Shown here piece by piece: positions 28,558 through 56,145 of a stretch of DNA of 64,000 nucleotides. Position numbers and translations under genes: made by a program. A model generated the notes under the pieces. The model saw only the letters and a program-made list of their open reading frames with translations. It was not told the DNA's origin and made no database searches. Source of the stretch: Rhodobacter sp. GTDB lineage: Bacteria > Pseudomonadota > Alphaproteobacteria > Rhodobacterales > Rhodobacteraceae. The stretch spans positions 1 to 64,000 of the forward strand of contig JAIYAE010000011.1 in NCBI GenBank assembly GCA_027489175.1, read 5' to 3'. The number at the start of each line of letters is the position of its first letter. Positions within the stretch are counted from its first letter, which is position 1.

Positions 28558-28573
28558 TTGACAGTCCAGTCAG
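28558..28573. promoter_or_regulatory. Candidate TetR operator, aminotransferase operon
   Basis: TTGACAGTCCAGTCAG fits the TetR-family pattern TGACnGnnCnGTCA exactly. It lies in the divergent region, 43 bp before the aminotransferase ATG. Confidence 0.6.
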
Positions 28574-28616
28574 TCGCGTGACAGGCTGTCGCATCCCCCT
28601 TTGAACGGACCCTGCC

Positions 28617-29963
28617 ATGCCTCCCTTGCCGCACCGCACGCTGACAAAATCCAACGCTCAGTTTCAGCGCGCCGTGAAACGCTTGCCCTTGGGGGTGTCC
28701 TCCACCTTCCGCTACTGGGGAGACACGCGCACCGTCTATGTCAGCCATGGCAAGGGGGGGCGGACCTGGGACATCGACGGCAACGCCTATGTCGATTACC
28801 GGCTGGGCTACGGTCCGGCAATCCTTGGCTATGCCGACGACCGGGTTGATGCTGCTGCCCGGAAAGGCATGGAGGTGGGCGGGGTCTTTGCCTTGTCGAC
28901 CGAGCGGGAGCTGGTTGTCGCGGACCGCATTGCAAAGATGGTGCCGGCAGCCGAGCTTGTCCGTTTTTCCAATTCCGGGACCGAAGCGGTCATGGCCGCC
29001 TTGCGCCTTGCGCGGGCCTTTACCGGGCGCGAGCAATATCTGCTGGTCGAAGGCGGGTATCACGGTCTTTTCGATGCGGCGATGTGGATGGCCAACATGG
29101 ATGACTGGGACCTTGGGTCAAACACTGACCCGGAACTGGTGCCCTATGGCAAAGGCATTCCGCCCACGGTCAAGCAACTGGCCCACATTACCCCGATGAA
29201 CGATTTCCAACGGCTTGAGGACATGTTCAAGCGCCATGGCGACCACTTGGCCGCCATGCTGATCGAACCGATCCAAGGCAATTGCTGTTCCATTATGGCG
29301 CGGGTGGAATACGTGCAGCTGGCGCGCGAGCTGTGCACGAAATACGGCGTGATGCTGATCATTGACGAGGTGAAGTCCGGTTTCCGTGTCGGAAAATCCG
29401 GGATCCAGGGCATCATGGGCGTGGTTCCCGACATCACCACGTTCGCCAAGGCGGTTGCCAACGGCTATCCGATCAGCGTCGTTGCCGGGCGAGAGGATGT
29501 CATGCGCACCTTCCGCTACGGCGGAGCCAGCCATGGCGGCACCTACACCGCCCATTCCGTAAGCCTGGCTGCGGCTGAAGAGACGCTACGCATCCTGGAT
29601 GAAACCCCCGCGCTCGAAACTTTGGCAAGCTATGGTGAGCGATTGAAATCGGGGATTTCGCAGATCCTTGATGCCCGAAAGATCGTGCATTCTTACACTG
29701 GTCATCCGTCGATGTTCGGCCTCTTCTTTGCAGAGGTTCCCCCCGACAATTACCGTGCCTGGAAGACCAGCGACTACAGCTTCTACGACGCGATGGCTTA
29801 CCATCTGCATGACCTTGGCATCATTGTCGAACCCGACAGCCGCGAGCCTTGGTTCATGTGCGAAGCGCATGGACTGGACGAAACCTGCCTGACCGATACG
29901 CTGAAGGCGGTGGAAACAGCGGTTGATCTGGTGCTTGAACACGGTGTGCAGGCCGCGGAATGA
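28617..29963 (+). CDS. Class III PLP aminotransferase, glutamate-1-semialdehyde aminomutase-like
   Basis: 448 residues. Fold-type I PLP enzyme: FSNSGTEAVMAALRLARAFTGR (phosphate site), YHGLFDAA, LIEPIQGN, LIIDEVKSGFR and the PLP lysine in TTFAKAVANGYP (about Lys278). The sequence is closest in style to glutamate-1-semialdehyde aminomutases and beta-amino-acid aminotransferases, but the cluster context argues for a catabolic transamination of an amine or amino acid. First gene of a long operon; its TGA overlaps the next ATG. True substrate unknown. Confidence 0.85.
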   Translation: MPPLPHRTLTKSNAQFQRAVKRLPLGVSSTFRYWGDTRTVYVSHGKGGRTWDIDGNAYVDYRLGYGPAILGYADDRVDAAARKGMEVGGVFALSTERELVVADRIAKMVPAAELVRFSNSGTEAVMAALRLARAFTGREQYLLVEGGYHGLFDAAMWMANMDDWDLGSNTDPELVPYGKGIPPTVKQLAHITPMNDFQRLEDMFKRHGDHLAAMLIEPIQGNCCSIMARVEYVQLARELCTKYGVMLIIDEVKSGFRVGKSGIQGIMGVVPDITTFAKAVANGYPISVVAGREDVMRTFRYGGASHGGTYTAHSVSLAAAEETLRILDETPALETLASYGERLKSGISQILDARKIVHSYTGHPSMFGLFFAEVPPDNYRAWKTSDYSFYDAMAYHLHDLGIIVEPDSREPWFMCEAHGLDETCLTDTLKAVETAVDLVLEHGVQAAE

Positions 29964-31576
29964 CCCATGACGCCTTGGTCATCGGGGCAGGGCACAACGG
30001 GCTGGTGACGGCCTGCTATCTGGCGCGGGCTGGGTTGAAGGTCTTGGTCATCGAGAAGAATGACTGGATTGGCGGGGCTGCCGTCAGCCGCGAGCTTTAC
30101 CCCGGCTTCACCTACTCCAACTGCTCTTATGTGAGCAGTCTTTTCCGGCCCGAGATCATGCGCGATCTGGAATTGCCCCGCCATGGGCTGCAGATCCTGC
30201 CCTATGAGGGCGGCGCCCTCTTCACCGAAAATGGTGGCTATCTGGGCATGTTCCGCGACCATGACGCGAACCGTCGCGAGTTTGCCCGGCATTCAAAACG
30301 CGATGCCGAGGCTTATGACCGCTATTCCCGGGATATCCTGCGCAATTGCCGATTGATCCGGCCAATGCTTATGCGCCGCCCGCCGGACCTGGCCAGCTTT
30401 CGCCCGCGCGATCTGATGGAGCTTGCCTGGCTTGGAAAGCAGATCACAGGCCAGTCTGAGGCGCAGATCTACGACATGCTGCGGTTCTGGACGATGTCGA
30501 TCTCGGACTTTCTGGACGGCTACTTCGAGAACCCGGCGATGAAGGCCTACCAGGCGGTAGGGTCGATCATCGGCACCGCGCTTGGGCCAATGTCGCCGGG
30601 CACGGCCTATGTCCTGCTTCACCACGCTATGGGGGACGTGGATGGCAACGTCGGCTCATGGGGCTATTCGCGCGGTGGGATGGGCGGCATCACCAAGGCG
30701 CTGACCGCCAGCCTGCAAGCCTCGGGGGGCGAGGTGCGGACAGGGTCTGGCGTAGCACAGGTGCTGGTGCAAAACGGGCGCGCGGTCGGGGTCGTGCTCG
30801 ACAATGGCGACGAGTTTCGTGCGCGGCGGGTGATCTCGAATATGGACGTGCGGCGGACCTTTCTGAAACACGTCGAGGCGAAAGAGCTGCCTGATGAATT
30901 CCTGAAGCGCGTGCAGCGGTTCAAGACCCGCGGGTCCTCTGGCAAGCTGAACATCGCGCTTGACGGCGTGCCGCGCTTTACAGCGTTGCCGGAAGGCGCG
31001 CCGAACCTGCGGGGCGACCTCCATTTCACCGACACGATCGAGAAGATGGAAATGGCCTATGACGACTGGAAGGCCGGTCACTACAGCCGTCAGCCGTTCC
31101 AGGACGTGATGATCCCCACCCTTATCGACCCAACGATGACGCCGCCCGGCAAGCATTTCATGTCTTGCTTCGTGCAATACGCTCCACCCAAGATCGAAGG
31201 CCGCGACTGGACGGATGCCGACCGCGACGGGTTCCGCGATGCCTGTCTTAACCAGATCGAAGCCTATGCCCCTGGCTTCAAGTCGTTGATCCTGCATGCC
31301 GAAGTGCGCACCCCGCGTGAGCTGGAGGCAGAAGTGGGCCTGACAGAGGGCAACATCTTTCAAGGTGAACTGACCTTCGACCAGATGTTCTTCAACCGTC
31401 CCGTGCCGGGCTATGCCAATTACCGCAGTCCGATCAAGAACCTCTGGATTTGCGGGTCGTCCACCCACCCCGGTGGTGGGGTGATGGGCGCACCGGGGCG
31501 AAATGCTGCAGCGGAAATCCTGCGCGACCTGAAGGTGCCCGCTAAGGACCTGAGTGATGCCTATGCCATCGTATGA
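29960..31576 (+). CDS. Phytoene-dehydrogenase-like FAD oxidoreductase (1)
   Basis: 538 residues. N-terminal dinucleotide-binding motif VIGAGHNGLVTACYLARAGLKVLVIEK, mid-protein GGMGGITKALTASLQASGG, and a C-terminal FAD segment NLWICGSSTHPGGGVMGAPGRNAA. This is the CrtI/PYROXD2-like branch, which includes carotenoid desaturases and many uncharacterised bacterial flavoproteins. No other carotenoid gene is present, so a C-N or C-C dehydrogenation of the cluster substrate is more likely. Overlaps its homologue at the 3' end. Confidence 0.85.
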   Translation: MTHDALVIGAGHNGLVTACYLARAGLKVLVIEKNDWIGGAAVSRELYPGFTYSNCSYVSSLFRPEIMRDLELPRHGLQILPYEGGALFTENGGYLGMFRDHDANRREFARHSKRDAEAYDRYSRDILRNCRLIRPMLMRRPPDLASFRPRDLMELAWLGKQITGQSEAQIYDMLRFWTMSISDFLDGYFENPAMKAYQAVGSIIGTALGPMSPGTAYVLLHHAMGDVDGNVGSWGYSRGGMGGITKALTASLQASGGEVRTGSGVAQVLVQNGRAVGVVLDNGDEFRARRVISNMDVRRTFLKHVEAKELPDEFLKRVQRFKTRGSSGKLNIALDGVPRFTALPEGAPNLRGDLHFTDTIEKMEMAYDDWKAGHYSRQPFQDVMIPTLIDPTMTPPGKHFMSCFVQYAPPKIEGRDWTDADRDGFRDACLNQIEAYAPGFKSLILHAEVRTPRELEAEVGLTEGNIFQGELTFDQMFFNRPVPGYANYRSPIKNLWICGSSTHPGGGVMGAPGRNAAAEILRDLKVPAKDLSDAYAIV

Positions 31577-33065
31577 TGTGATCGTCATCGGCGCGGGGCC
31601 GAATGGTCTGGCAGCGGCACATCGACTGGCATCACGGGGTGCCAAGGTGCTGGTGCTTGAAGGTGCAAATACCCCTGGTGGCGGGGCAGGCCTTGCACAT
31701 TTGTCCTACAACCTCGACGCGCGGGTCGAGGCGGCGATGAACTTGCGCGACCATGGACTGCGTTGGATGTCCACCAATCTTGCAACCACGGCACTGTCGG
31801 CCGATGGCATGCACTTGCGACTGGAAGGTGCCTTGGGCGACAGGTTGACGGGCAACTGCTCTGACGCTGACCATATCGCTTGGGCCCAGCTGCGCCGCCG
31901 TCTTTTGCGTTTTGCCGCCGTGCTTTCGCCCTTGAACCAGATGACCCCGCCACGCATCGCGCGCAAGGCGGGAAACCACTTGCTTCAGTTGGCCAAGGTC
32001 GGCCTGCGCGCCCGAATGCTGGGTGCGTCCGAGTTTCGCGAGCTGGGGCGCATCCTGCTGACGAATGTCCATGACCTGCTGGATGACGAACTCACCTCAC
32101 CTTTGCTGAAAGGCGTATTGGCTTTTGATGCAACTTTGGGTGGGTGGCTTGGTCCACGATCCCCCAATACGGTGCTGCCTTGGCTGGTGCGTCTGTCCGG
32201 GCAGACGGCGGGGGTGCAGGGGGTACTTGGCCTGCCGAAGGGCGGCATGCCGGCACTTGCCGCCGCTCTGGCGCGGTCGGTTGAGGCCGCAGGCGTGACC
32301 TTGAGGTGCAATGCCCGTGTGATCCGTATCATGATCGAGGCAGAGCGGGCGGTCGGCGTTACACTCACCTCAGGCGAAGAGGTGCGTGCGCCGCGTATCC
32401 TTTCGGCGATAGCGCCCGCTGTCACATTGCTTGACCTCGTGGGTCCGCGGCACCTCGATACCGGTCTGACCACCCGTGCAAGGCAGCTTAAGGCGAGGGG
32501 TGGGACAGCGAAACTTGACCTGACCTTGCGCGCCCTGCCGGATTTCCGGGGGGCAAACCTCAAGGATCGACTGGTGATCGCCGGGTCAGAACACGCTGTC
32601 GAGACCGCATTCAACCCGGTCAAATATGGCCGCACCCCTGACCGTCCCGTGATGGAGATCGTGCTTCCATCTGCCCATGATCCCGAGGCCCCGCATCATT
32701 TGTCCGCCATCGTTCAGTTCGCGCCCCATGCCCCGGCAGACCGCGACGCGGCCCGACAGGCCATGCTGGCTGCCTGCATGGCACAACTGGAAACTCAGGC
32801 CCCCGGCATCGGTGCACTGGTTCAGCGCGCCGAGATCTTGATGCCCTTCGATATTGAAGACCGGTATGGCCTTCCGGGCGGGCAATGGCATGCCGGCGAA
32901 CTCAGCGTCGAGCAGATGCTGTTCTTGCGCCCCTTGCCGGGCGTCGCGCAGTACCGTGGTCCGATTCCGGGCCTTTGGCTGGCATCCGCTGGGTGTCACC
33001 CCGGTGGTGGGGTCTCTGGCACCCCGGGATGGAACGCGGCCCTTGCAATGGAGGCCGCCGAATGA
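31557..33065 (+). CDS. Phytoene-dehydrogenase-like FAD oxidoreductase (2)
   Basis: 502 residues from ATG 31557 (AAGGA upstream). Same architecture as the preceding protein: VIVIGAGPNGLAAAHRLASRGAKVLVLEG, GVLGLPKGGMPALAAALARSVEAAG, and GLWLASAGCHPGGGVSGTPGWNAA. The two are diverged paralogues and, being encoded side by side with overlap, may form a heteromer or act on successive intermediates. Followed by a 4-bp overlap with the GcvT-like gene. Confidence 0.85.
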   Translation: MPMPSYDVIVIGAGPNGLAAAHRLASRGAKVLVLEGANTPGGGAGLAHLSYNLDARVEAAMNLRDHGLRWMSTNLATTALSADGMHLRLEGALGDRLTGNCSDADHIAWAQLRRRLLRFAAVLSPLNQMTPPRIARKAGNHLLQLAKVGLRARMLGASEFRELGRILLTNVHDLLDDELTSPLLKGVLAFDATLGGWLGPRSPNTVLPWLVRLSGQTAGVQGVLGLPKGGMPALAAALARSVEAAGVTLRCNARVIRIMIEAERAVGVTLTSGEEVRAPRILSAIAPAVTLLDLVGPRHLDTGLTTRARQLKARGGTAKLDLTLRALPDFRGANLKDRLVIAGSEHAVETAFNPVKYGRTPDRPVMEIVLPSAHDPEAPHHLSAIVQFAPHAPADRDAARQAMLAACMAQLETQAPGIGALVQRAEILMPFDIEDRYGLPGGQWHAGELSVEQMLFLRPLPGVAQYRGPIPGLWLASAGCHPGGGVSGTPGWNAALAMEAAE

Positions 33066-34246
33066 CCGCCCTGCGCCACTATGAAACGCCGTTGCAGACC
33101 ACAGCGTTTCACCCGAGGACTGAGGCCGCCAACAAACTGTGGTCTTGGGGAAACTGGGCCGGATATGCCACCGTCCTGACCTATGAAGACCTTGCGATGG
33201 AACATTCGGCCATCCGCAACACGGCAACGGTCTACGATCTTTGCCCGATGGTGAAGTACCGCATCGAAGGACCGGAAGCAGCCGTCTATCTGAACCGCCT
33301 GACGCTGCGCGATGCGGCCAAGCTTTCCGTTTCCGGCGTGCATTACACCGCTTGGGTCACTGACCAAGGGCACTTGCTGGACGATGGAACGCTCTTCCGG
33401 CTTGCCCCCGATCAGTATCGGCTTTGTTGTCAGGAACGGCATTTGCCTTGGCTGCTCGACTCGGCCCACGGCTTTGACGTGACGGTGACAGATGAGACCG
33501 AAGAGATCGCCGCCCTGTCCCTGCAAGGCCCCACCTCAGCCGAGATTTTGCGGTTGGCCGGGTTTGATGTGGACCAGTTGAAACCCTTCCGGATGATGGA
33601 CCTTCCGTTTGGAACCGGTCGCCTGATGATCTCACGCACCGGGTTCACGGGCGATCTGGGGTATGAGCTTTGGACCACGCCCGATCAGGCACTTGCGCTG
33701 TGGGACGCCCTCTTTCAGGCAGGCGCGCTGCATGGGTTGCGCCCCATCGGGTCGGCCGCTGTAAACATTGCGCGGCTTGAAGCGGGGTTCATCATCACCG
33801 GCTATGACTTCACCCCAGCCGATATCTGCTTGCGCGAAGATCGGCTGCGGTCTCCCTTGGAAATGGGCCTTGGGTGGCTGATCGACTGGGACAAGGGCCA
33901 TTTCACCGGAAAAGCTGCCTTGGCCAGGCAACGTGACCACGGTCCGAAATGGGCCTTCGTCGGACTTGAGATCGAGGGCAACATTCCGGCTGACGGTGCC
34001 ATCCTTTACCACGCGCAGAAGCGGGAGGTCGGGGTCATCACCGGGGCCTGCTGGTCGCCGGTTCTGAAGAAGAACATAGCGCTGGCGCAGATTCTGGCGG
34101 AACATGCAGCTGGCAGCAACATCTGGGCCGAAATTTACGCGTTGCGTGAGTTGCACTATGAAAAGCTGATGATGCGCGCCCGCGTGGTGGAGCGACCCTT
34201 CTTTGCCCCCGCGCGCCGCCGCGCCACGCCCCCGGGGAGGTTTTGA
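33062..34246 (+). CDS. GcvT-like aminomethyltransferase-family protein
   Basis: 394 residues. Folate-dependent fold of glycine-cleavage T proteins and DMSP demethylase DmdA: YDLCPMVKYRIEGPEAAVYLNRL, HYTAWVTDQGHLLDDGTLFRL, LQGPTSAEIL, ISRTGFTGDLGYELW, ARLEAGF and a C-terminal beta-barrel. No other glycine-cleavage genes are nearby. In a cluster of demethylating oxidoreductases it probably transfers a methyl or formaldehyde-level carbon from the substrate to tetrahydrofolate. Starts inside the end of the flavoprotein gene. Confidence 0.88.
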   Translation: MTALRHYETPLQTTAFHPRTEAANKLWSWGNWAGYATVLTYEDLAMEHSAIRNTATVYDLCPMVKYRIEGPEAAVYLNRLTLRDAAKLSVSGVHYTAWVTDQGHLLDDGTLFRLAPDQYRLCCQERHLPWLLDSAHGFDVTVTDETEEIAALSLQGPTSAEILRLAGFDVDQLKPFRMMDLPFGTGRLMISRTGFTGDLGYELWTTPDQALALWDALFQAGALHGLRPIGSAAVNIARLEAGFIITGYDFTPADICLREDRLRSPLEMGLGWLIDWDKGHFTGKAALARQRDHGPKWAFVGLEIEGNIPADGAILYHAQKREVGVITGACWSPVLKKNIALAQILAEHAAGSNIWAEIYALRELHYEKLMMRARVVERPFFAPARRRATPPGRF

Positions 34247-35388
34247 TGGGACAGACCGACCGCCATCCCCTGTCGCCTAGGCTTGACCATTGTCCGGCAG
34301 GTCTGCCGCGCGCCGCCTACATGGACCGGGATTGGTATGACCGCGAAATGGCGACGGTGTTCGCCCGCCAATGGATCATGGTCGGGCGGGCGGCCGATCT
34401 TCCGGCAGGGACGATGCGGCGCGTCTCGCTGGGCGATGCGCAGGTCATCATTCTGCGCGACCGTGACGGCCATCTGGCCGCCTATCACAATTTCTGCCCC
34501 CATCGCGGTTCTGAACTGTGCAGCGCGGCAGAAGTGTCTATCGGCAAGCTGATCCGCTGCCCGTATCACGCTTTCGCCTTCGCGGCCGAGGACGGGCGAC
34601 TTGTGGCGACCGGTCACGCCGTACCGACACCCGATTTTGATCCCGCCGCGCATGGCCTGCGGCGGGTGGCGATCCGGCTCTGGAACGGTTTTCTGTTCCT
34701 CAACCGCTCGGAAGGGACAGGTCCAATCTTGGCTGACGTCGGATTGAACTCGCTGGACAACTGGCCAATGGAAGGCCTTGTGACCGGCAACCGCTGGGAA
34801 ACAGACATTGCCTGTAACTGGAAGGCGTTCTGGGAGAATTACTCCGAATGCCTGCACTGTCCCGGAATACATCCCGAACTTTGCGACATGGTTCCGATTT
34901 ATGGCCAAGGCATCATGGGCGCGTCCGAGGCGCTGGGCTGGACACCAGATGACCCGGCGGCGCCCAACCTGAGACCCGGGGCGCAAAGCTGGACGCCGGA
35001 TGGTGCCGCTTGCGGACCGCAGTTTCCCGGGCTGACCCCAGCCGAGCGGCAGGCTGGCTACAGCTTTGTCACGCTTTGGCCATCGGCCTACGTGGTTGCG
35101 CATGTGGATTATGTCCGGTCAGTGCGGATCGTTCCCATCGGTCCAGAAACCACCAGACTGATCGCCGAATGGCACTTCTCAAAAGACACGCTGGCACAAC
35201 CAGGCTTTGACGCCGCCGGCGTCGCCGCCTTTGCCAAGACGGTAATGGCGCAGGACGGTGCGGCATCCGAAATGAACCAGCGCGGCATGCGCTCACCGGC
35301 GTTTTCGGCAGCGCGGCTGATGCCCGAGGAATACGAGATCCACCGCTTCCAACAGTGGGTTCTGCAGCAGATGGAGGGGTCATCGTGA
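34246..35388 (+). CDS. Rieske non-heme iron oxygenase alpha subunit (1), betaine-demethylase-like
   Basis: 380 residues. Rieske cluster ligands CPH (84-86) and CPYH (105-108); mononuclear iron site in NWKAFWENYSECLHCPGIHPEL. The ENYxECxHCxxxHP form is the one I associate with glycine betaine, carnitine and stachydrine monooxygenases (GbcA, CntA, Stc2). ATG overlaps the preceding stop (TGATG), with GGGGAGG 5 bp upstream. No ferredoxin/reductase partner gene is in the window. Confidence 0.9.
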   Translation: MGQTDRHPLSPRLDHCPAGLPRAAYMDRDWYDREMATVFARQWIMVGRAADLPAGTMRRVSLGDAQVIILRDRDGHLAAYHNFCPHRGSELCSAAEVSIGKLIRCPYHAFAFAAEDGRLVATGHAVPTPDFDPAAHGLRRVAIRLWNGFLFLNRSEGTGPILADVGLNSLDNWPMEGLVTGNRWETDIACNWKAFWENYSECLHCPGIHPELCDMVPIYGQGIMGASEALGWTPDDPAAPNLRPGAQSWTPDGAACGPQFPGLTPAERQAGYSFVTLWPSAYVVAHVDYVRSVRIVPIGPETTRLIAEWHFSKDTLAQPGFDAAGVAAFAKTVMAQDGAASEMNQRGMRSPAFSAARLMPEEYEIHRFQQWVLQQMEGSS

Positions 35389-36608
35389 CTCAGCTTCCCT
35401 ACCAGACAGTCCCCGTTCCCAATGAATGGGACCGGCGCGGCCTTCCTGCGTGGACCTATCGTTCAAAGGCGCTTTTTGCATTGGAACGCGAAAAGGTCTT
35501 TCTGTCGCATTGGCAGGTCGTGGGCCATGTCAGCGACGTCCCGAACGCTGGTGACTGGCTGACCTTCGACTTGCTGGGTGAGCGGGCGGTGGTCATGCGG
35601 GGGCAGGACGGGGTGGTCCGCGCCTTTCACAACCTGTGCCGCCACCGGGGCGCGCGGGTCGTGGACGGACCTGCGGGTCAGTGCAAGGGCGCTATCGTCT
35701 GCCCGTTTCACGGCTGGGTCTACAATCTGGACGGCAGCCTGCGTGGCGCCGCCCAGCCCAAATCCTTTGGCGAATTGCAGCGCGAGGAGTTCGGCCTCAA
35801 ACCGATCGAAATCGAGACCTTCTTCGGCTTCATCTTTCTGCGTTTCGCGCCCGGCCCACAGCCGCCCGTGGCCACGCTTCTCGCCCCGTTTGCGGCCGAC
35901 TTCGCTTCTTATGGGCTTCAGGGAATAGAGCCTGTTCCGACAGCCGGCTGGGCCAGCGTTCTGCCCGTAAACTGGAAGTCGGTCCGCGATGTCGACAACG
36001 AAGGCTACCATGTGGCCATGGCCCATCCCGGCCTGCAGGATCTTTATGGCCGCACCTACCGGGACATGTATCTCGACAACGGCCTTTCCATCTCGATCGG
36101 CTGGTACGGTGATGCGCCGGGCAAGCTGTGGTCGGTGCGCAATTATGCCAAGCTGTCGCCCCCCCGGACGGACCTGCCGCCCCATCTGCAGCGGGCCTGG
36201 ACATATTACGGGCTATTTCCCAATCAGGTCTTCTCCGTCACTCCGGAAGGGGTGCAGTTCTACCATGACATTCCGCTGGACGAAGGGTCTACGCGCCTGA
36301 CTGGCCGCTCTTACCGCTGGCCGAACGAAACGCGAGCACAGCGGGTGGGGCGGTATCTGGCTTACCGGATTGACCGCGATACCTCAGTTGAGGATCGGCA
36401 ACTGTCGATCTGGTCCAACGAGTCGATGAAGTCGGACGCGTTTGAAGGTTTTCACCTGTCGGACCTCGAATATGGCCTGCGTCGCCATCATGACGCGCTG
36501 CGCCGCATCTTGCCGGTGATGGAACTGGCAACGGCCCCGCCTGAAGATCAGATGGCGGCATTGAACACCGAAAAAAGATTGCCAGACCAGTTGCCAGGCG
36601 TAAGCTGA
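35385..36608 (+). CDS. Rieske non-heme iron oxygenase alpha subunit (2)
   Basis: 407 residues from a GTG at 35385 that overlaps the upstream stop codon. Rieske ligands CRH (85-87) and CPFH (106-109); catalytic iron region NWKSVRDVDNEGYHVAMAHPGL. The site differs from the neighbour (DNEGYH in place of ENYSECLH), so it likely attacks a different molecule or a later intermediate. Last gene before the ABC importer, 51 bp away. Confidence 0.88.
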   Translation: MTQLPYQTVPVPNEWDRRGLPAWTYRSKALFALEREKVFLSHWQVVGHVSDVPNAGDWLTFDLLGERAVVMRGQDGVVRAFHNLCRHRGARVVDGPAGQCKGAIVCPFHGWVYNLDGSLRGAAQPKSFGELQREEFGLKPIEIETFFGFIFLRFAPGPQPPVATLLAPFAADFASYGLQGIEPVPTAGWASVLPVNWKSVRDVDNEGYHVAMAHPGLQDLYGRTYRDMYLDNGLSISIGWYGDAPGKLWSVRNYAKLSPPRTDLPPHLQRAWTYYGLFPNQVFSVTPEGVQFYHDIPLDEGSTRLTGRSYRWPNETRAQRVGRYLAYRIDRDTSVEDRQLSIWSNESMKSDAFEGFHLSDLEYGLRRHHDALRRILPVMELATAPPEDQMAALNTEKRLPDQLPGVS

Positions 36609-37763: not shown

Positions 37764-37767
37764 TAGC

Positions 37768-46894: not shown

Positions 46895-46898
46895 GGCC

Positions 46899-47714: not shown

Positions 47715-48793
47715 TCAGTCTGCGCAATGTTTGCAAAAGCTTTGGTCGCATGCAGGTGGTCAACGATGTCTCGCTCGAGATTGCGGCAGGCGAGTTCTTT
47801 TCGCTGTTGGGGGCCTCGGGGTCTGGAAAGACAACGCTGTTGCGGATGATTGCAGGTTTTGAAGCGGTGACCTCAGGCCAGATCCTGATCGACGGCCAGC
47901 CGATGCAAGACACACCGCCGCATCTGCGCCCCATCAACATGGTGTTTCAGAACTACGCCATCTTCCCGCATCTGACCGTGCGCGACAACATCGCGTACGG
48001 TTTGCGACGGCTTGGCACGCCAAAGGCCGAACAGGCCCGGATGGTGGACGCCATGCTGGAGCTGATCGCCTTGCCTGGGTATGGCGACCGGCGAGCGCAT
48101 CAGCTTTCGGGCGGGCAGATGCAGCGGGTGGCCCTTGCGCGGGCGTTGATCCTGAAGCCGAAGCTCCTTTTGCTGGACGAACCACTCGGGGCGCTGGACA
48201 AACAACTGCGCGAGCAGATGCAGATAGAGCTGCGCAGCTTGCAGCGGCAACTCGGCATCACCTTTGTTCTGGTCACCCACGACCAGGAAGAAGCGCTGAC
48301 CCTGTCGGACCGGGTCGCGGTCATGGCCAATGGCCAGGTGATCCAGGTCGACACGCCGTCGGGCCTGTATGACCGGCCAAAAACCCGGCAGGTTGCAGCC
48401 TTTGTTGGCACGATGAACTTCTTTGACGCAACGGTGCGCACAGATGGTTCTGCGCGGATCGCCGATGTTGCAGGCCTTGGCGTCATGACGCTGAACGGGT
48501 CCGGCCAGGGCCGCACCGATGGCGAGCGGGTGCTGGTCGCGCTTCGGCCCGAAGGGCTGGGCCTGTCGCGGACAAAACCGGAAGGGCCTGCCTATGCCGT
48601 TGCCGGGCAGCTTCAGGCACGCCAGTATCTCGGCGGGCGTCAACTCCTCCATGTTCAGGTGGCGGGGCGCGCGGCGCCGGTCACGGTTGCCGCCGGAGCC
48701 GCCCGCGGGGAAGATCCATGGTCCGGGGATGAGGGCAGCCCGGTCTGGCTGACCTGGGCCCCTGACGCCGTTACCATCCTGGACCCGACTTGA
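47711..48793 (+). CDS. PotA-like ABC ATPase (importer 2)
   Basis: 360 residues. GASGSGKTT, VFQNYAIFPHLTVRDNIAYG, LSGGQMQRVALARAL, LLLLDEPLGALD, VTHDQEEALTLSDR, then a TOBE domain (RTDGERVLVALRPEGLGLS). The gene order here (binding protein - B - C - ATPase) differs from importer 1 (binding protein - ATPase - B - C). Confidence 0.93.
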   Translation: MISLRNVCKSFGRMQVVNDVSLEIAAGEFFSLLGASGSGKTTLLRMIAGFEAVTSGQILIDGQPMQDTPPHLRPINMVFQNYAIFPHLTVRDNIAYGLRRLGTPKAEQARMVDAMLELIALPGYGDRRAHQLSGGQMQRVALARALILKPKLLLLDEPLGALDKQLREQMQIELRSLQRQLGITFVLVTHDQEEALTLSDRVAVMANGQVIQVDTPSGLYDRPKTRQVAAFVGTMNFFDATVRTDGSARIADVAGLGVMTLNGSGQGRTDGERVLVALRPEGLGLSRTKPEGPAYAVAGQLQARQYLGGRQLLHVQVAGRAAPVTVAAGAARGEDPWSGDEGSPVWLTWAPDAVTILDPT

Positions 48794-48821: not shown

Positions 48822-49514
48822 ATGAAAGCTGATGATCTTGCGCAACTCGGCCCTCGACCAACCCGCCGCGCCCTGGCCAAGGCCGAACGGCGGCTAGCGC
48901 TGATTGACGCGACGATCACGTCGATCGCCACTTACGGTCTGTCTGGCACCACCATCGCAAAGGTCACCGAAATCGCCGGAACCTCGATCGGGCTGGCAAA
49001 TTTTCACTTTGCGAACAAGGAGCTTCTTTTGGAAGGCGTCCTGCAGCACCTTGCTGAGGCTGAACGCAAGCTGTGGCAAGACCGCATTGCCGATGTCACC
49101 CAAAGCCCGGCCGAGCGCTTGGTCGCCCTTTTGGATGCCCGCTTTGATCCCCGCAGCTGCAACCCCCGCACCCTTTCCGTCTGGTTCGCCTTTTGGGGTG
49201 ATGCCAGCGCCCGCGCGATCTATCGCCGCGTGGTCGAGGCAACGGACGATGCCCGCCTTGCCGTCACGGTCGCCTTGATCGAAGAGATCGGGCGGGGAGG
49301 GGACACTCCGTCGCGCGATGCCATGCAAACCGCCCTTGGGCTTGAAGCCTTCTATGATGGGCTTTGGCTGAACCATCTGCTTTATCCCGAAGATTTCCGG
49401 CGGCTGGCCTGTCGCCAGCGGGCCATCGAACATCTTGCCGCCCTGTTCCCCACCCATTTTTCAGGCGTGCAGACCGTTGCCCCGCGCGCCCCGGGCAACC
49501 CTGAAAGGACCTGA
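48822..49514 (+). CDS. BetI-like TetR repressor (2)
   Basis: 230 residues. Helix-turn-helix TIAKVTEIAGTSIGLANFHFANKELLL and effector-domain SVWFAFWGDASARAIYRRV, the BetI hallmark. Clear AAGGACTGACC before ATG. It lies inside the second operon between importer 2 and the flavoprotein gene, so the operon probably regulates itself. Paralogous to the repressor at 27818. Confidence 0.88.
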   Translation: MKADDLAQLGPRPTRRALAKAERRLALIDATITSIATYGLSGTTIAKVTEIAGTSIGLANFHFANKELLLEGVLQHLAEAERKLWQDRIADVTQSPAERLVALLDARFDPRSCNPRTLSVWFAFWGDASARAIYRRVVEATDDARLAVTVALIEEIGRGGDTPSRDAMQTALGLEAFYDGLWLNHLLYPEDFRRLACRQRAIEHLAALFPTHFSGVQTVAPRAPGNPERT

Positions 49515-49517
49515 CCC

Positions 49518-51620
49518 ATGGCTCTGATCCAGACCCGCGATCCGCGCTATGACATTCTGTTCGAACCCGTTCGTCTTGGCCCGGTCACGACGAAGAACCG
49601 CTTCTATCAGGTTCCACATTGCACCGGCATGGGCTGGGTCCGCCCCCGCACCGTTGCCGAAATGCGTGGGGTCAAGGCCGAGGGCGGATGGGGCGTCGTC
49701 AACACCGAATACTGTTCGATCCATCCGGCATCGGATGACCAGATGCATATCTCGGCCACGATCTGGGATGACACGGATGTGCGCAATCACCGGCTTATGA
49801 CCGACAAGGTCCATGCCCATGGCGCCTTGGCGGGGTGCGAGTTGTGGTTTTCCGGATCGCGCAGCGCCAATCTCGCGTCGCGTCTGGTGTCGATGGACGT
49901 GGCAAGCCGTCCGAATGGCGTCGGCCACCCGTTCCAGTCCCGTGCGATGGAGAGGGAAGACATCCGCACCTTCCGCCGCTGGCACCGAAATGCGGCCATC
50001 CGTGCCAGGGATGCGGGCTTTGACATCGTCTATGTCTACGCGACCCACGGCTATCTTCTGTCGCATTTCCTTGACCCGGACACCAATACTCGGACGGATG
50101 AATACGGCGGGTCGCTGGAGAACCGCACCCGTCTGGTCCGCGAGCTTATCGCCGAGACGAAAGACGCTGTCGGGGATCGTTGCGCCGTCGCCGTCCGCTT
50201 TGCCGCAGACGCCGAGGTGGGAGAAGACGGCCAACCCATCCTCGGTGAACGTCAGGACATGTTCGCCTCCATGGCAGACATGCCCGACCTTTGGGATATC
50301 AACATTGCCGACTATTCACTGGAAATGGGCGCATCGCGTTTTGTCCGGGAAGCAGCTCTGAAGCCCTATATGCATTGGGTCAAGTCAGTGACAACGAAGC
50401 CCGTGGTGACCGTCGGGCGCTTCACGTCTCCCGACACGATGGCGGCTTGGGTAAAGTCAGGCCTGACCGATCTGATCGGGGCCGCGCGACCGTCGATCGC
50501 CGATCCGTTCATTCCGAAGAAAATCGAAGACGGCCGCATTGAAGACATCCGCGAATGCATCGGCTGCAATGTCTGCTACTCGGGCGACAGCCTCGCCCTT
50601 CCGATCCGCTGCACGCAGAACCCCACCATGGGTGAGGAGTGGCGCAAGGGCTGGCACCCCGAACGCATCGCCGCACGGGGCACGGATACGCAAGTGCTGG
50701 TCGTTGGGGCCGGGCCGGCCGGTCTTGAAGCGGCCCGTGCCCTTGGCGCACGAGGCTACCGTGTGGCACTGGCCGAGGCGTCTCGCGTTCTGGGCGGGCG
50801 GGCGGTGCGCGAGGCAGCGCTTCCCGGAATGCGCGAATACATCCGGGTGCGCGACTGGCGCGAAGGTCAGATTGCCAAACTTCCCAATGTCGAGGTTTTC
50901 CGCGAAAGCCGCCTGACGGCCGAGGATATCCGTGAGTTTGGCGCCGATCATGTGGTGATCGCGACCGGAGCGCGCTGGCGGCGTGACCTCTTCACCGGCA
51001 AGCGGTTTGAACCGGTGGCCGCTGACGCCACCCCGATCTTTACGCCTGATGACATCATGGACGGTCGCCTGCCGGATGGCCCAACGGTCGTCTATGATGC
51101 CGATGGCTATTACATGGGCGGCGTGATTGCCGAACGACTGCGCGGCGCCGGGCTTGAGGTTACTTTGGTCACGCCCGACGACCGTGTTTCGCCCTGGACG
51201 CTGAACACTGGGGAAGGCTGGCGCGTGCCTGGGCATCTGATCGCGCTTGGGATTACGCTGTGCACCGCCCAGGAACTGACCTGGTTTGATGGGGTCAGCG
51301 TCACTCTGGCCTGTGCCCATAGCGGCCGCCAAAGCCAGCTGCCCGCCTCAAGCCTTGTGTTGGTGGGCCAGCGCGCACCGGTGGATGACCTTTACACCGC
51401 CTTGCGTTACGCCCCTGACGGCAGCCATACCAACCTGCCCTTTACCCTGGCCCGGATCGGTGATTGCGAGGCCCCCGCGATCATCGCAGCCGCAACCTAT
51501 GCCGGTCACCGCTATGCCCAAGAGTTGGACAACGCGGTAGACGTCGATCTGCCACTGAAGCATGACAAGGTAGATGTGGGGTTGGTGACCCCGTCCCAAT
51601 TGCAGCAGGCAGCGGAATGA
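49518..51620 (+). CDS. Trimethylamine-dehydrogenase-like FMN/[4Fe-4S] amine dehydrogenase
   Basis: 700 residues: N-terminal old-yellow-enzyme barrel, [4Fe-4S] ligands Cys347, 350, 353 and 365 (CIGCNVC...RC), then a nucleotide-binding half (VLVVGAGPAGLEAARAL; VVIATGARW). NRFYQVPHC keeps the Cys (about Cys35) that binds FMN covalently in trimethylamine dehydrogenase; TEYCSI keeps Tyr60, and YATH keeps the Tyr169/His172 pair. However Trp264 and Trp355 of the trimethylammonium-binding bowl are absent: SLEMGASRF replaces the first region and CYSGD the CISRW region. A different secondary or tertiary amine is therefore likely. Numbering is recalled from Methylophilus TMADH. Overlaps the next small gene by 4 bp. 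Confidence 0.88.
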   Translation: MALIQTRDPRYDILFEPVRLGPVTTKNRFYQVPHCTGMGWVRPRTVAEMRGVKAEGGWGVVNTEYCSIHPASDDQMHISATIWDDTDVRNHRLMTDKVHAHGALAGCELWFSGSRSANLASRLVSMDVASRPNGVGHPFQSRAMEREDIRTFRRWHRNAAIRARDAGFDIVYVYATHGYLLSHFLDPDTNTRTDEYGGSLENRTRLVRELIAETKDAVGDRCAVAVRFAADAEVGEDGQPILGERQDMFASMADMPDLWDINIADYSLEMGASRFVREAALKPYMHWVKSVTTKPVVTVGRFTSPDTMAAWVKSGLTDLIGAARPSIADPFIPKKIEDGRIEDIRECIGCNVCYSGDSLALPIRCTQNPTMGEEWRKGWHPERIAARGTDTQVLVVGAGPAGLEAARALGARGYRVALAEASRVLGGRAVREAALPGMREYIRVRDWREGQIAKLPNVEVFRESRLTAEDIREFGADHVVIATGARWRRDLFTGKRFEPVAADATPIFTPDDIMDGRLPDGPTVVYDADGYYMGGVIAERLRGAGLEVTLVTPDDRVSPWTLNTGEGWRVPGHLIALGITLCTAQELTWFDGVSVTLACAHSGRQSQLPASSLVLVGQRAPVDDLYTALRYAPDGSHTNLPFTLARIGDCEAPAIIAAATYAGHRYAQELDNAVDVDLPLKHDKVDVGLVTPSQLQQAAE

Positions 51621-51808
51621 CCTCGCTTCGTTCCGCGCGCGCCGGTGGGTTGGCCCTTGGCGGTGCCGCCGTGGCCATCTCGGCATTGCTGGTCTTTGGT
51701 CGGGGTGCCAGCGAACCACGGATCAGCGCGCCAGATTGCAGCAGTTGCGACGCCCGGCATGCGCGGCTGACGCAGCTGCGCGCCGCTGGAACGGACGCGA
51801 CAGAATGA
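51617..51808 (+). CDS. Small 63-residue predicted membrane protein with CxxC
   Basis: One hydrophobic segment (GGLALGGAAVAISALLVFG) followed by a short periplasmic-like tail containing DCSSCD. Both ends overlap neighbours by ATGA: the flavoprotein stop at the start and the MOSC start at the end. Such double coupling argues that it is a real gene. No family recognised; could anchor or deliver electrons for the dehydrogenase, or bind a metal through the two Cys. Confidence 0.6.
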   Translation: MTSLRSARAGGLALGGAAVAISALLVFGRGASEPRISAPDCSSCDARHARLTQLRAAGTDATE

Positions 51809-52371
51809 GCAAAAGCCCCGATAATCCCGTGACAATGGCCGAGCTCGACGCCGCCCTTCCGGCAATCCTTGCTGCCCCGAGTGATCGGGGGACCATTCAT
51901 CTCCTCTGCGCCCGGCCCAAACCCAATGCCCGCACCTTCCCGCAAAGCCTGACCCTGACCCGCGCCGCGGGCGTGGTTGGTGATTTCGAAATGGCGCGCC
52001 CCTGGCTGGAGCTGCCCGACGGCAGCCCTGATCCGCGGATTCAGGTCTCGATCATGCCCTGGCAGGTGCTGCATCTGGCCTGGCGCGACCGCGACCGCGT
52101 GCCCCATCCGGGCGACAACATCGCCGTCGACATGAACCTGACCGAGGCGAACCTGCCCGCAGGTACGCTCCTTTCCCTCGGCACGGCGGTGCTGCGGGTC
52201 AGCGACGTGCCGAATGATGGCTGTGTGAAATGGAAAGTGCGCTGCGGTCGTGCAGCCTATGACTGGATCACGGCACCCGCCCATCTGCCATTGCGCCTGC
52301 GCGGGCTCTTCTGCTCGGTCGAGCATGATGGCGTGGTAGACCTTGGCGGCACCCTGTCCGTTATTACGTGA
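51805..52371 (+). CDS. MOSC-domain protein
   Basis: 188 residues. HPGDNIAVDMNLTEANLPAGTLLSLGTAVLRVSDVPNDGCVKWKVRCG then LRLRGLFCSVEHDGVV follows the MOSC beta-barrel with its conserved Cys in DGC. MOSC domains bind molybdenum cofactor or act as sulfur carriers in Moco enzymes. Its place in a flavin-based amine operon is unexplained. Coupled to the small gene upstream and immediately followed by the dehydrogenase below. Confidence 0.8.
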   Translation: MSKSPDNPVTMAELDAALPAILAAPSDRGTIHLLCARPKPNARTFPQSLTLTRAAGVVGDFEMARPWLELPDGSPDPRIQVSIMPWQVLHLAWRDRDRVPHPGDNIAVDMNLTEANLPAGTLLSLGTAVLRVSDVPNDGCVKWKVRCGRAAYDWITAPAHLPLRLRGLFCSVEHDGVVDLGGTLSVIT

Positions 52372-52385
52372 AGAGAAGCCGACCG

Positions 52386-54854
52386 ATGTCGATCAACCCG
52401 ACCCTGCCCAGCCACGCCCGCGTCGTCATCATCGGCGGCGGCGTCATCGGCACCTCGATCGCCTACCACCTTGGCAAGCTCGGGGTCAGCGATGTTGTCC
52501 TTTTGGAGCGGGACAAGCTGACCTCAGGCACGACATGGCACGCAGCAGGGCTGATCGCGTCCGGAGGCATGTCCACCGAAACGCCGATCTGGATCGAGCA
52601 GTATACTCGCGACCTCTACCAGCACGTCCTGCCCGCCGAAACCGGCCTGTCCACCGGCTTTCGCCAATGCGGGCACATCCATCTGGCGTGCGACGCCACC
52701 CGGCGTGAAGTTCTGAAGCGCGATGCGAACTTCGTGCGGACCCAAGGGGTTGACCGGTTTGAGCTTTCTCCAGCTGAAATCAAGGCAAAGTTCCCGCTGA
52801 TCGAGACGGCAGGAATAGTGTCGGGTTTCTGGACCCCGACCGACGGACGTGCCAACCCAGTGGACGTGACCATGGCGCTGGCCGCCGGGGCCAGGGCAGG
52901 CGGCGCGCGGATTTTTGAAGGGACACCCGTCAACGATTTTATCGTGACTGGCGGACGCGTCACGGCGGTTGTCACTCCGCATGGCACCGTCAAGGCCGAC
53001 CATGTGGTGTTGGCCGCAGGCATGTGGTCGCGCCAACTTGGGGCCAAGATCGGCGTATCGGTGCCCCTGCAAGCGGCTGAGCATTACTATCTGCTGACCG
53101 AGCCATTGGCGGGCATGCACCCCGACCTGCCAGTGGTCGAGGACCCAAGCACCTTCACCTACGTGCGTGAAGAAGGCGGCGGCATGCTCTTTGGTCTCTT
53201 TGAGCCCGAAGGCGCCACCTGGAACCTGAACGGCATCCCGAAAGAGGCAAGCTTTTCGACCCTGCCGCCCGACTGGGACCGGATGACCCCGTTCCTTGAG
53301 GCCGCCTTCGAACGCTATCCGGTGATGAAGACGGCCGGCATCAAGACCTTCTTCTGCGGGCCGGAAAGCTTTACCCCCGATGGGTCATACCTCCTCGGCC
53401 AAAGCCCCGAGGTTGACGGACTGTTTCTGGCCACCGGTCTGAATTCCTTGGGGATTCTGTCCGCGGGTGGGGTAGGGCACATCCTGGCCGAGCTTTTGGT
53501 CACTGGCGCCTCGTCACAAGATGTCACCGGCCTCGACATCGCTCGTACGCGGCCGCATCAGGCGACGCGGGCCTTCCTTGGTGCACGGATCCCGAAGTCG
53601 CTCGGCTATACCTTCACCTACGGCCCCCTGCCGCACTGGCACCACACAACGGCACGGGGCATGCGCCGCCTAGCCCTGCATGACCGTTATGCGGCGATGG
53701 GCGCCTACTTCCATGATCTTTCGGGCTGGGAAATGCCCTACTGGTTCTCGCCCGACGCGCCGCCCCCAAAGGTGGACTACTCCTACGGCCGCCAACCTTG
53801 GCATGACCTTGCCGCCCGCGAACATCATGCGACGCGCACGGCGGTTGGCCTGTTCGACAAGTCCTTCATGGGCAAGTTCCTTGTCCAGGGCCACGATGCG
53901 CTGAAGGTGTTGAACCGGGTCAGTGCCAACCAGATCGACGTAGCCATCGGCCAGAACGTCTATACCCAATGGCTGAACGACCAGGGCGGCATCCTGTCGG
54001 ACCTGACGATCACCCGGACGGGCCCGGAAGACTTTCTGTTGGTGACGGGCGACATCCTGCAATCCTTCACACCGGCCTGGCTGCGCCGACATATCCTGGC
54101 GGATGAGGCCTGCACACTGACCGACGTCACCAGCGCCTATACGATCCTGTCGCTGCAGGGCCCCAGATCGCGTGACGTTCTGATCGGGATGACGGGGGAA
54201 GACCTCTCATCGGTGGCCCTGCCTTTCCGCGCCAGCCGGATGCTGGACATCGGGCCGGTCCCGGTCCGCGTGGTCCGGGTGACCTATATGGGCGAACTCG
54301 GGTATGAGCTTTACGTCCCCACCGAATACTCGCACGCGGCACACGACGCATTGATCGCAGGGATCCGCGCCGCAGGGGTAGACCCGGTCCACTGCGGGCT
54401 ATTGGCGCTTGAATCCCTGCGGCTGGAAAAGGGCTACCGCGACTTTGCCGTGGACATCGACAATACCGATACGCCTTTGCAAGCGGGCCTGGGCTTCGCA
54501 GTGGATTTCACCAAACCCCATTTCATTGGCCGCGACGCGCTTTTGCGCCAGAAGGCCTCCGGCCCGCTGACCCGGCGGATCGTGCAGTTCCTGCTGCAGG
54601 ACGCGGGTCCCCTTCTGCACGGGAATGAGCCGATCCTCTGTGACGGCCGCGACGTCGGCTATATCCGCGCAGGCGCGTTTGGGCCAACGCTTGGTGCCTC
54701 GGTTGGCCTTGGGGTGGTGGACTACCCCGATGGGATCACGGCTGACATGCTCCACCGCCACCGCTGGGAGGTCGAGGTTTGCGATGCCCGCATTCCCGCC
54801 ACCCCGTCGCTTGCCCCACTTTACGACCCAAAGGGCGACCGTGTCCGCCAGTAA
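52386..54854 (+). CDS. Dimethylglycine/sarcosine-dehydrogenase-like FAD-GcvT fusion
   Basis: 822 residues: DAO-type FAD domain (VVIIGGGVIGTSIAYHLGKLG), FAD-linked central domain, and a C-terminal GcvT folate domain (LSLQGPRSRDVL; VTYMGELGYELYVPTEY; LESLRLEKGYRDF). SGTTWHAAG carries the His (about His52) that binds FAD covalently in dimethylglycine and sarcosine dehydrogenases. Expected to remove an N-methyl group and pass formaldehyde to tetrahydrofolate. ATG 52386 follows AGAGAAG; a GTG at 52368 is an alternative. Overlaps the next gene by 14 bp. Confidence 0.92.
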   Translation: MSINPTLPSHARVVIIGGGVIGTSIAYHLGKLGVSDVVLLERDKLTSGTTWHAAGLIASGGMSTETPIWIEQYTRDLYQHVLPAETGLSTGFRQCGHIHLACDATRREVLKRDANFVRTQGVDRFELSPAEIKAKFPLIETAGIVSGFWTPTDGRANPVDVTMALAAGARAGGARIFEGTPVNDFIVTGGRVTAVVTPHGTVKADHVVLAAGMWSRQLGAKIGVSVPLQAAEHYYLLTEPLAGMHPDLPVVEDPSTFTYVREEGGGMLFGLFEPEGATWNLNGIPKEASFSTLPPDWDRMTPFLEAAFERYPVMKTAGIKTFFCGPESFTPDGSYLLGQSPEVDGLFLATGLNSLGILSAGGVGHILAELLVTGASSQDVTGLDIARTRPHQATRAFLGARIPKSLGYTFTYGPLPHWHHTTARGMRRLALHDRYAAMGAYFHDLSGWEMPYWFSPDAPPPKVDYSYGRQPWHDLAAREHHATRTAVGLFDKSFMGKFLVQGHDALKVLNRVSANQIDVAIGQNVYTQWLNDQGGILSDLTITRTGPEDFLLVTGDILQSFTPAWLRRHILADEACTLTDVTSAYTILSLQGPRSRDVLIGMTGEDLSSVALPFRASRMLDIGPVPVRVVRVTYMGELGYELYVPTEYSHAAHDALIAGIRAAGVDPVHCGLLALESLRLEKGYRDFAVDIDNTDTPLQAGLGFAVDFTKPHFIGRDALLRQKASGPLTRRIVQFLLQDAGPLLHGNEPILCDGRDVGYIRAGAFGPTLGASVGLGVVDYPDGITADMLHRHRWEVEVCDARIPATPSLAPLYDPKGDRVRQ

Positions 54855-56145
54855 ACCTCATGTCCTGGTGCTGGGGGCCGGGATGGCTGGCCTTGGGGCC
54901 GCCCGCCTTTTGCAAGACGCCGGGGCCCGCGTCACCGTGATCGAGGCGCGTGACCGCATCGGTGGGCGCAGCCATACCAGCCATCTCTGGCCCGATCTGC
55001 CGGTCGACATGGGGGCAAGCTGGATACACGGCACCAAGGGCAACCCGATGACGACGTTGGCTAAGGCCGTGGGAGTGAGCCTGACGCCAACCAGCTACAA
55101 ACGCGCGGGCACGTTCGACCCTCATGGGAATGAAGTTGAGTTTCAAAAGGCCACAAAGCGGGCGCTGAAGCTGGTCAAGCATGCCCGCGCGCGCGCGGAT
55201 CATGCCGATGCCGACCAGTCGTTGCAGGCGGCAATTGAACGGTCAAGGGCCTGGCGCGGCCTTTCGGACTTTGACCGTCGCGTCGCCCGGCTGGCGATCA
55301 ACACCCGGATCGAGCATGAGTATTCCGGCGACTGGAGCCGCCTTTCCGCCTGGCATTTCGATGACGGCAGGGATTTTCCGGGCGATGAGGCCGTGCTGAC
55401 ACCCGGCTTTGGCCCCATCATTCACCACCTCGCCCAGGGGCTTGATTTGCGGCTGGGCTCGCCTGTCACCCGACTTGCGCCAGCCACGCTAGGGGTTGAA
55501 GTGACAACAGCGCAAGGCATCCACCGGGCTGACTGTGCCATTGTCACCTTGCCGCTTGGGGTGCTGAAATCCGGCTCTGTCCAGTTTGCCGAACCCTTGA
55601 GCAGCAACCGCCAGCGCGCCATTGACGGGCTTGAGATGGGTTTGCTGAACAAATGCATCCTGCGCTTTGACCGGGTTTTCTGGCCCGCGGACCTGGACTG
55701 GATTGATTTTCTTGGGCCCCAGGAAACGCTTTGGGCCGACTGGACCAGCTATCTTCCGGCGACCGGCCAGCCTTTGATCGTAGGGTTCAACGCCGCTGCC
55801 ATGGCGGAAGCGGTGGAAGGCTGGGGTGACCGGGAAACCGCAGCCTCGGCGCTGGATGCGTTGCGCGCAATGTTTGGCACCTCGGTGCCTGATCCCGTCG
55901 GCAGCCAGATCAGCCGCTGGCGCCAAGACCCTTTCGCGCAAGGCGCTTATTCCTTCCTGCCGGTTGGCACCAGGGCCAAGGACCGCAAGGCCCTCTTTGG
56001 TGCGGACTGGGAGGGGCGGCTGCTCTTTGCCGGTGAGGCGACCTCACATCATCACGCGGCGACGGTTCACGGTGCGCTGATGACCGGGCGAAAGGCGGCC
56101 AAGGTGGTCCTGCGGGGTCTGCCGGGCGCTCCGTTCACCGGCTAG
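54841..56145 (+). CDS. Flavin amine oxidase, polyamine-oxidase-like
   Basis: 434 residues from GTG 54841 (AAAGGG upstream). FAD-binding VLVLGAGMAGLGAARLLQDAGARVTVIEARDRIGGR, GASWIHG, then LPLGVLKSG and C-terminal FAGEATSHHHAATVHGALMTGRKAA. Typical of the polyamine/monoamine oxidase family. Last gene of the second operon; converges on and overlaps the aldolase gene by 4 bp, with no terminator between. Confidence 0.9.
   Translation: MSASKPHVLVLGAGMAGLGAARLLQDAGARVTVIEARDRIGGRSHTSHLWPDLPVDMGASWIHGTKGNPMTTLAKAVGVSLTPTSYKRAGTFDPHGNEVEFQKATKRALKLVKHARARADHADADQSLQAAIERSRAWRGLSDFDRRVARLAINTRIEHEYSGDWSRLSAWHFDDGRDFPGDEAVLTPGFGPIIHHLAQGLDLRLGSPVTRLAPATLGVEVTTAQGIHRADCAIVTLPLGVLKSGSVQFAEPLSSNRQRAIDGLEMGLLNKCILRFDRVFWPADLDWIDFLGPQETLWADWTSYLPATGQPLIVGFNAAAMAEAVEGWGDRETAASALDALRAMFGTSVPDPVGSQISRWRQDPFAQGAYSFLPVGTRAKDRKALFGADWEGRLLFAGEATSHHHAATVHGALMTGRKAAKVVLRGLPGAPFTG

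Follow-up and report, generated by a model that had tools for sequence, protein, structure and literature searches.

A conserved gene island of Rhodobacter sp. that may serve the catabolism of an N-methylated cationic amine

A 64,000-nucleotide stretch (the window) of the 3.77 Mb genome of Rhodobacter sp. (assembly GCA_027489175.1, contig JAIYAE010000011.1, positions 1 to 64,000) carries a gene island whose products probably take methyl groups off a positively charged nitrogen compound before removing its nitrogen. The island is real and conserved. We analysed positions 28558-56145 and describe genes from 27818 to 56145 (Table 1). Two runs of plus-strand genes lie between 28617 and 56145, separated by a 185-base gap at 43893-44077. 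These are referred to as operons 1 and 2, where operon denotes neighbouring same-strand genes that overlap or are separated by short gaps and is defined by gene layout alone. Gene families were called by Pfam and NCBIfam profile scans, and the gene names FadA, FadB and AT1 were coined in this analysis. Gene content, synteny and conserved motifs were established directly. On this basis, we put the probability that the island serves to break down an N-methylated cationic amine, with a conserved alphaproteobacterial core as its basis, at roughly 45%. An earlier sequence-only reading of this DNA had proposed a multi-step pathway for a methylated cationic amine that includes N-demethylation and transamination, and the conserved gene set is consistent with such a pathway. 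All of the gene families that it named (importers, porin, a pair of Rieske oxygenases, demethylases, flavoproteins and others) are encoded by open frames and match Pfam or NCBIfam models.

The core of the island recurs in Rhodobacterales and Hyphomicrobiales as TetR-FadA-FadB-GcvT genes with a Rieske oxygenase, a class III aminotransferase and an ATP-binding cassette (ABC) importer. A scan of GTDB genomes with the FadA alignment yielded at least 595 pattern matches, of which at least 557 encode a relative of FadA (E <= 1e-3; this includes distant relatives). The best 80 of these at least 557 relatives (loci L014-L093) are the most similar part of the set and are not mutually independent. Their record titles name mostly Rhodobacterales and Hyphomicrobiales genera; several name higher groups only, one names Inquilinus and one Exiguobacterium. 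FadB lies directly after FadA in 72 of 72 testable loci and GcvT is next in 68 of 68. Because FadA, FadB and GcvT are contiguous in every testable relative, the gene order is beyond chance. The neighbourhood comparison suggested by the earlier reading thus finds the core co-conserved across relatives, and, in the genomes searched, the objection that its genes might not be conserved together does not hold. Operon 1 is also present, from TetR to the methyltransferase and in the same order, on the Fuscovulum ytuae plasmid NZ_CP124537 (64-86% identity).

Gene counts for these loci were taken from tblastn placements, and 44 loci have flanks of 9 kb or more on either side (long-flank loci). TetR was placed in 43 of the 44, the ABC ATPase in 42, the two permeases in 40 and 40, the methyltransferase in 25 and an AmOx relative in 15; DMGDH was placed once, TMADH and the amidohydrolase never. 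The remaining genes distinguish two forms of the core. AT1 (17 of the 44), RieA (19), SBP1 (18) and the cupin (17) were all placed in the first form, which comprises 19 long-flank loci in L014-L048. The second form, with 25 long-flank loci in L049-L093, has another class III aminotransferase (22), an SBP2/SBP3-like binding protein (24) and a protein of ~85 amino acids (25 there, 27 among the 44), and has neither RieA nor the cupin (0 each). Exceptions lie outside the 44 loci: L051 has RieA and the cupin, and L055 has AT1 and SBP1. In Rhodobacter-type loci the amidohydrolase and methyltransferase lie beyond the 10-kb flanks; among seven distinct loci of this type that were extended (L009, L109-L113, L128), five have the methyltransferase and three the amidohydrolase (L009, L109, L113). 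AT1 reaches 429 bits against the NCBIfam GntE model (cut-off 525), and three of three scanned proteins of the second aminotransferase type exceed the PRK07036 cut-off. As an aminotransferase is present in both core forms, encoded by different genes, the aminotransferase step appears to be kept.

FadA, and FadB in most of its orthologs, carry a lysine that matches the conserved active-site lysine of flavin amine oxidases. In a free alignment with AmOx, CrtI and CrtD, FadA Lys329 falls in the amine-oxidase lysine column (Lys in 35 of 35 aligned), which we take to hold the catalytic lysine of LSD and polyamine oxidases; an hhalign alignment of FadA with AmOx spans only residues 3-280, short of Lys329. 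The residue is Lys in 99 of 99 FadA orthologs and, at the equivalent position, in 79 of 92 FadB orthologs. The genome encodes two further proteins above the CrtI-family cut-off, here labelled CrtI and CrtD, that have Leu and Ala, respectively, in this column. Carotenoid desaturase or ketolase identity was rejected for both flavoproteins, as their scores are under the curated cut-offs for TIGR02734 (FadA 110.7 and FadB 91.9 bits, cut-off 238.1) and for NF045689 CrtO (303.7 and 162.1 bits, cut-off 1000).

The stand-alone GcvT-like protein retains its DD, TGD and YE motifs, which presumably have catalytic and folate-binding roles, in all 89 sequences. Its nearest PDB profile match is the folate domain of trimethylamine N-oxide (TMAO) demethylase (217.5 bits). 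Against the NCBIfam model of the TMAO demethylase (Tdm) of Methylocella silvestris it reaches 264.8 bits, far under the cut-off of 1100 bits, and it matches only the C-terminal part of Tdm. Identity as the glycine cleavage T-protein (TIGR00528, 177.2 bits, cut-off 235.85) or as DmdA (NF009133, 123.6 bits, cut-off 410) was rejected. A flavoprotein part together with a GcvT-type folate part is also the composition of DMGDH and of heterotetrameric sarcosine oxidase, and the DMGDH encoded in the window has both parts in one chain. In the core, however, two CrtO/CrtI-like PF01593 proteins make up the flavoprotein parts, and the GcvT is separate. FadA, FadB and GcvT may thus be a demethylase split over three polypeptides that would do the job of the single-chain DMGDH.

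RieA and RieB are Rieske oxygenases, as are CntA, the Stc2-type demethylase and GbcA. The Cys/His ligands and a conserved glutamate are kept in 45 of 45 RieB sequences and, except for one unaligned Cys-His pair, in 34 of 34 RieA sequences. The best PDB match of RieB is the carnitine monooxygenase CntA (122 bits). The solved structures nearest to RieA are 3vca, which we take to be the proline betaine demethylase Stc2, and 4qup. Identity as GbcA was rejected for both (NF058607, cut-off 670 bits; RieA 162.2, RieB 125.8). Genes for a MocE-type ferredoxin, a desaturase and a reductase occur near the FadA core in Rhizobium sp. SL42 (L013 5636-9130) and near a lone cupin in Mesorhizobium sp. 131-2-1 (L010 11216-15681).

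The cupin shares the fold and the H-x-H-x4-E motif of the dimethylsulfoniopropionate (DMSP) lyase DddQ (model pLDDT 89.4; Foldseek E 1.6e-12 to 4b29). It differs in being only 20-23% identical to DddQ-type enzymes and in carrying an extra N-terminal domain, as known here from sequence and model, and it may eliminate an amine or a sulfide; the beta-elimination considered in the earlier reading is a putative step. The N-terminal domain (40621 to ~40800) is homologous to the stand-alone ~85-aa protein encoded after GcvT in the other core form (e.g., L011 17789-18034), with the pattern RYAAAM..LEVYR..S..D..DP. Two members of this 85-residue family had no NCBIfam match and one had no Pfam match.

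The binding proteins of the two importers differ in their predicted pockets. The putrescine-binding protein PotF has an aromatic box of W37, W244 and F276, a proximal site of S38, D39 and D247, and a distal site that includes E185 and D278 (PMC8666671). SBP1 aligns along the full length of PotF and keeps W37, D39, W244, D247 and D278, but has Asp for E185 and Trp for F276 and scores 330 bits where the equivalog cut-off is 636. In all 36 SBP1 rows, Trp occupies positions 37, 244 and 276 and Asp occupies positions 185 and 278, while Asp and Glu share positions 39 (33/3) and 247 (35/1). SBP1 thus combines a PotF-type box with the carboxylates. The three Trp are also kept in SBP2 (10 rows) and SBP3 (62 rows from 45 loci), but G, S/T/A and C replace the acids at 39, 247 and 278. 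Because SBP1 keeps the acids and SBP2 only the Trp box, we infer that the importers take up different types of cation: a polyamine-like cation (possibly a dication) for importer 1, whose closest known counterpart is the PotFGHI putrescine importer, and for importer 2 a quaternary or tertiary amine with a single positive charge that would be held by aromatic rings.

These pockets bear on the nature of the substrate. Methylated polyamines occur in diatom silica, and terminal-trimethylammonium betaines in algae and plants. An undescribed pathway for an N-methylated di- or polyamine, shared by Rhodobacterales and Hyphomicrobiales, with a new folate-coupled demethylase (two CrtO-like amine oxidases and a free GcvT) and an 85-residue helper domain, is an unlikely specific form of our reading. 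Slightly less likely still is a zwitterionic betaine that ends in a trimethylammonium group, such as the betaines of gamma-aminobutyric acid (GABA), beta-alanine or 5-aminovalerate, or trimethyllysine, that would be fully demethylated and then omega-transaminated, the importer only appearing to be polyamine-specific. The proximity of RieB to carnitine monooxygenase, the tryptophan box without acids in SBP2 and SBP3 and the class III aminotransferases in both core forms would be explained by such a substrate, but SBP1 retains the acids that in PotF bind both putrescine amines, and operon 1 showed no importer of the betaine type.

Under the favoured reading, a methylated cationic amine would be imported, and RieB and RieA would remove methyls from its quaternary nitrogen as the first step. 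FadA and FadB would then act as amine-oxidising flavoproteins on the remaining N-methyl groups, with the separate GcvT passing the N-methyl carbon to tetrahydrofolate, and the class III aminotransferase would transaminate the freed primary amine. TMADH, DMGDH and AmOx may attack further N-methyl or C-N bonds in the same or a related compound. The reactions, their order and the service of both operons to one class of compound are all read from gene families and neighbourhoods. The sequence-only reading had labelled two of these enzymes TMADH-like and polyamine-oxidase-like. Both families were right, but the nearest solved relative of the first is histamine dehydrogenase (672 bits) rather than TMADH (554 bits), and AmOx is closest to LSD2 (180 bits), followed by LSD1 (170) and a plant polyamine oxidase (126).

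Operon 2 is tied to the core by co-occurrence and, in some genomes, by position. Of 295 genomes of the window's family, 39 match FadA at E <= 1e-50; FadA reaches >=58% identity in 29 and a TMADH-like enzyme reaches >=60% in 19. Both FadA (>=58%) and TMADH occur in 10 genomes, where ~2 are expected (hypergeometric P ~9e-7, or ~5e-6 without the own genome, uncorrected for relatedness). Of 16 Roseobacter-type genomes (FadA 58-62% identical), 11 have a TMADH relative (>=54%) no more than 10 kb from FadA. Importer 2, TetR2 and TMADH adjoin the core in L094, L099, L100, L102, L137 and L138, TetR2 and TMADH do so in L101, and some loci with operon-2 genes by the core (L094, L099-L102, L137, L138) add relatives of DMGDH, the methyltransferase or AmOx. 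A relative of the MOSC-like protein adjoins TMADH in L133. A EutQ-like cupin of ~250 aa recurs beside operon-2 relatives in L130, L131, L133, L136 and L140; one member was scanned (Cupin_3) and the others were recognised by eye from their N-termini. No such protein turned up in the scanned genes of the window. Two or three tandem TMADH-like genes occur in L129-L132, L135 and L140, from Rhodobacteraceae with no FadA match; several of these loci have a polyamine-type importer, and L130 and L140 a PRK07036-like aminotransferase.

Several observations, set out in this paragraph and the next, weigh against the favoured reading. In contrast to the CntA, Stc2-type and GbcA systems, no reductase gene for the Rieske oxygenases was identified among the window genes scanned, and searches of the own genome show no clear one (one FAD_binding_6 place, in a PNPOx-fused protein with no Fer2 domain listed, and three NAD_binding_1 places, one of them examined further). 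RieB was placed in only 28 of the 44 long-flank loci, and the methyltransferase has no place in the proposed pathway. The other 13 FadB orthologs have Arg (12) or Ser (1) for the lysine. In five distant single FadA relatives (37-41% identity, L104-L108) the residue is Lys in three and Arg in two, so it marks a wider family. The best NCBIfam model of FadA, although below its cut-off, is CrtO. A search for CrtO proteins as a control for the lysine gave no match at an E-value limit of 1e-100 in 398 genomes, and not even the 14 control genomes gave one. The AlphaFold model of FadA (pLDDT 75.9) has as its top Foldseek match the carotene desaturase 4rep (TMt 0.83), and amine oxidases rank behind the carotene desaturases; the fold therefore does not discriminate between the two. 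The CrtO score, the 4rep match and the DddQ fold of the cupin could be explained if FadA and FadB were carotenoid-type C-C desaturases in a pathway that breaks down an unsaturated or cyclic compound and in which the cupin catalyses an elimination. We regard this as improbable, given that the FadA lysine is absent from the own-genome CrtI and CrtD and that all 25 long-flank loci of the second core form have the core without the cupin.

The remaining difficulties concern the link between the operons. Among 13 Rhodobacter-type genomes (FadA >=71%; several assemblies are fragmented), TMADH lies within 20 kb of FadA only in the window, and in one genome that has both operons (G175) they lie 569 kb apart. 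The idea of one island put forward earlier is thus partly supported, by the Roseobacter-type genomes, where operon-2 genes adjoin the core. These distances, the different pockets of SBP1 and SBP2 and the 9 of 19 TMADH-ortholog genomes without FadA at >=58% are also what would be expected of two separate pathways side by side, the operons acting on different compounds and joined by gene gain. This is a serious competitor, if on balance rather unlikely, in view of the proximity of TMADH to FadA in most of the Roseobacter-type genomes and of importer 2 beside the TMADH relative in six of the loci read.

The pathway is apparently undescribed. In agreement with the earlier reading, no known pathway with the same genes was found in the literature searched (few subscription papers, no preprints), and as far as that search extends, neither the combination of these known enzyme families nor the split demethylase has been described. 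That the island encodes an already described pathway, such as homarine catabolism, is very improbable. Homarine is likewise an N-methylated marine compound, and a conserved homarine pathway was reported in 2026 according to a mention in PMC13390433, but that mention links homarine to no Rieske, GcvT or aminotransferase genes.

The features of the island are listed in Table 1. Two BetI-like repressors had been listed in the earlier reading, and both exist, although TetR1 falls outside the interval first assigned to the island. The class I S-adenosylmethionine (SAM) methyltransferase and the MOSC-like protein are additions to the first gene list.

Table 1. Genes of the island and of its divergent regulator, with window positions, strand and basis of assignment.
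Feature	Position	Strand	Basis
TetR1, BetI-type repressor, divergent from operon 1	27818-28486	-	PF00440 and PF13977
AT1, class III aminotransferase, GntE/HemL-like	28617-29963	+	PF00202
FadA, CrtO/CrtI-fold flavoprotein, amine-oxidase-like Lys329	29960-31576	+	PF01593
FadB, second flavoprotein of the pair	31563-33065	+	PF01593; start picked from homologs
Stand-alone GcvT-like protein	33062-34246	+	PF01571 and PF08669
RieA, Rieske oxygenase nearest 3vca/4qup	34246-35388	+	PF00355 and PF00848
RieB, Rieske oxygenase nearest carnitine monooxygenase	35385-36608	+	PF00355 and PF00848
SBP1, PotF-like binding protein with polyamine-pocket acids	36660-37763	+	NCBIfam and PotF alignment
ABC ATPase 1	37768-38874	+	TIGR01187 potA, 373 bits (cut-off 355.6)
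Permeases A1 (38878-39792) and B1 (39789-40628)	38878-40628	+	PF00528
DddQ-fold cupin with extra N-terminal domain	40621-41475	+	PF16867, 66 bits (cut-off 27)
Amidohydro_3 protein	41468-43069	+	PF07969, 285 bits
MT, class I SAM methyltransferase	43119-43892	+	PF13649
TorF-type outer-membrane porin	44078-44770	+	TIGR02001, 73.5 bits (cut-off 47.15)
SBP2, PotD/PotF-like, Trp box without acids	44839-45960	+	NCBIfam and alignment
Permeases A2 (45995-46894) and B2 (46899-47714), ATPase 2 (~47711-48793)	45995-48793	+	PF00528, PF00005; starts estimated
TetR2, BetI-type repressor	48822-49514	+	PF13977, 72.9 bits
TMADH/histamine dehydrogenase family enzyme	49518-51620	+	PF00724
MOSC-like protein, weak match	51805-52371	+	PF03473, 18.3 bits (below Pfam cut-off 22.7)
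DMGDH-like demethylase	52368-54854	+	DAO, FAO_M, GCV_T and GCV_T_C domains
AmOx, LSD/polyamine-oxidase-like amine oxidase	54841-56145	+	PF01593, 234 bits; start estimated

Genes with other predicted functions flank the island. The plus strand encodes a 1839-aa protein composed mostly of RTX calcium-binding repeats (88-5607; PF00353, 39 stretches) and, at 6169-12837, an AraC-type regulator, a sugar-type periplasmic binding protein, a BPD_transp_2 permease, a short-chain dehydrogenase and an FGGY kinase, a set that resembles an operon for the uptake of sugars or sugar alcohols. The minus strand at 21808-27243 encodes two ABC-type import sets, each with a permease: one has an NMT1/OpuAC-like binding protein, the other an SBP_bac_11 binding protein. 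Also on the minus strand and head-on to the amine island is a class II aldolase, KduI/IolB and PfkB row that is like an inositol (iol) operon (56142-58810). An Rfam scan of the whole window at gathering thresholds gave 0 matches, so a riboswitch clue to the substrate is absent.

If the favoured reading is correct, many alphaproteobacteria of water, sediment and plant roots would have in common a route, as yet without a name, for a methylated nitrogen compound. This route would include a demethylase of novel architecture, and a protein family that now carries the names of carotenoid enzymes would gain a function. The presence or absence of acids around three tryptophans would then be a pocket rule that separates polyamine importers from importers of quaternary amines.

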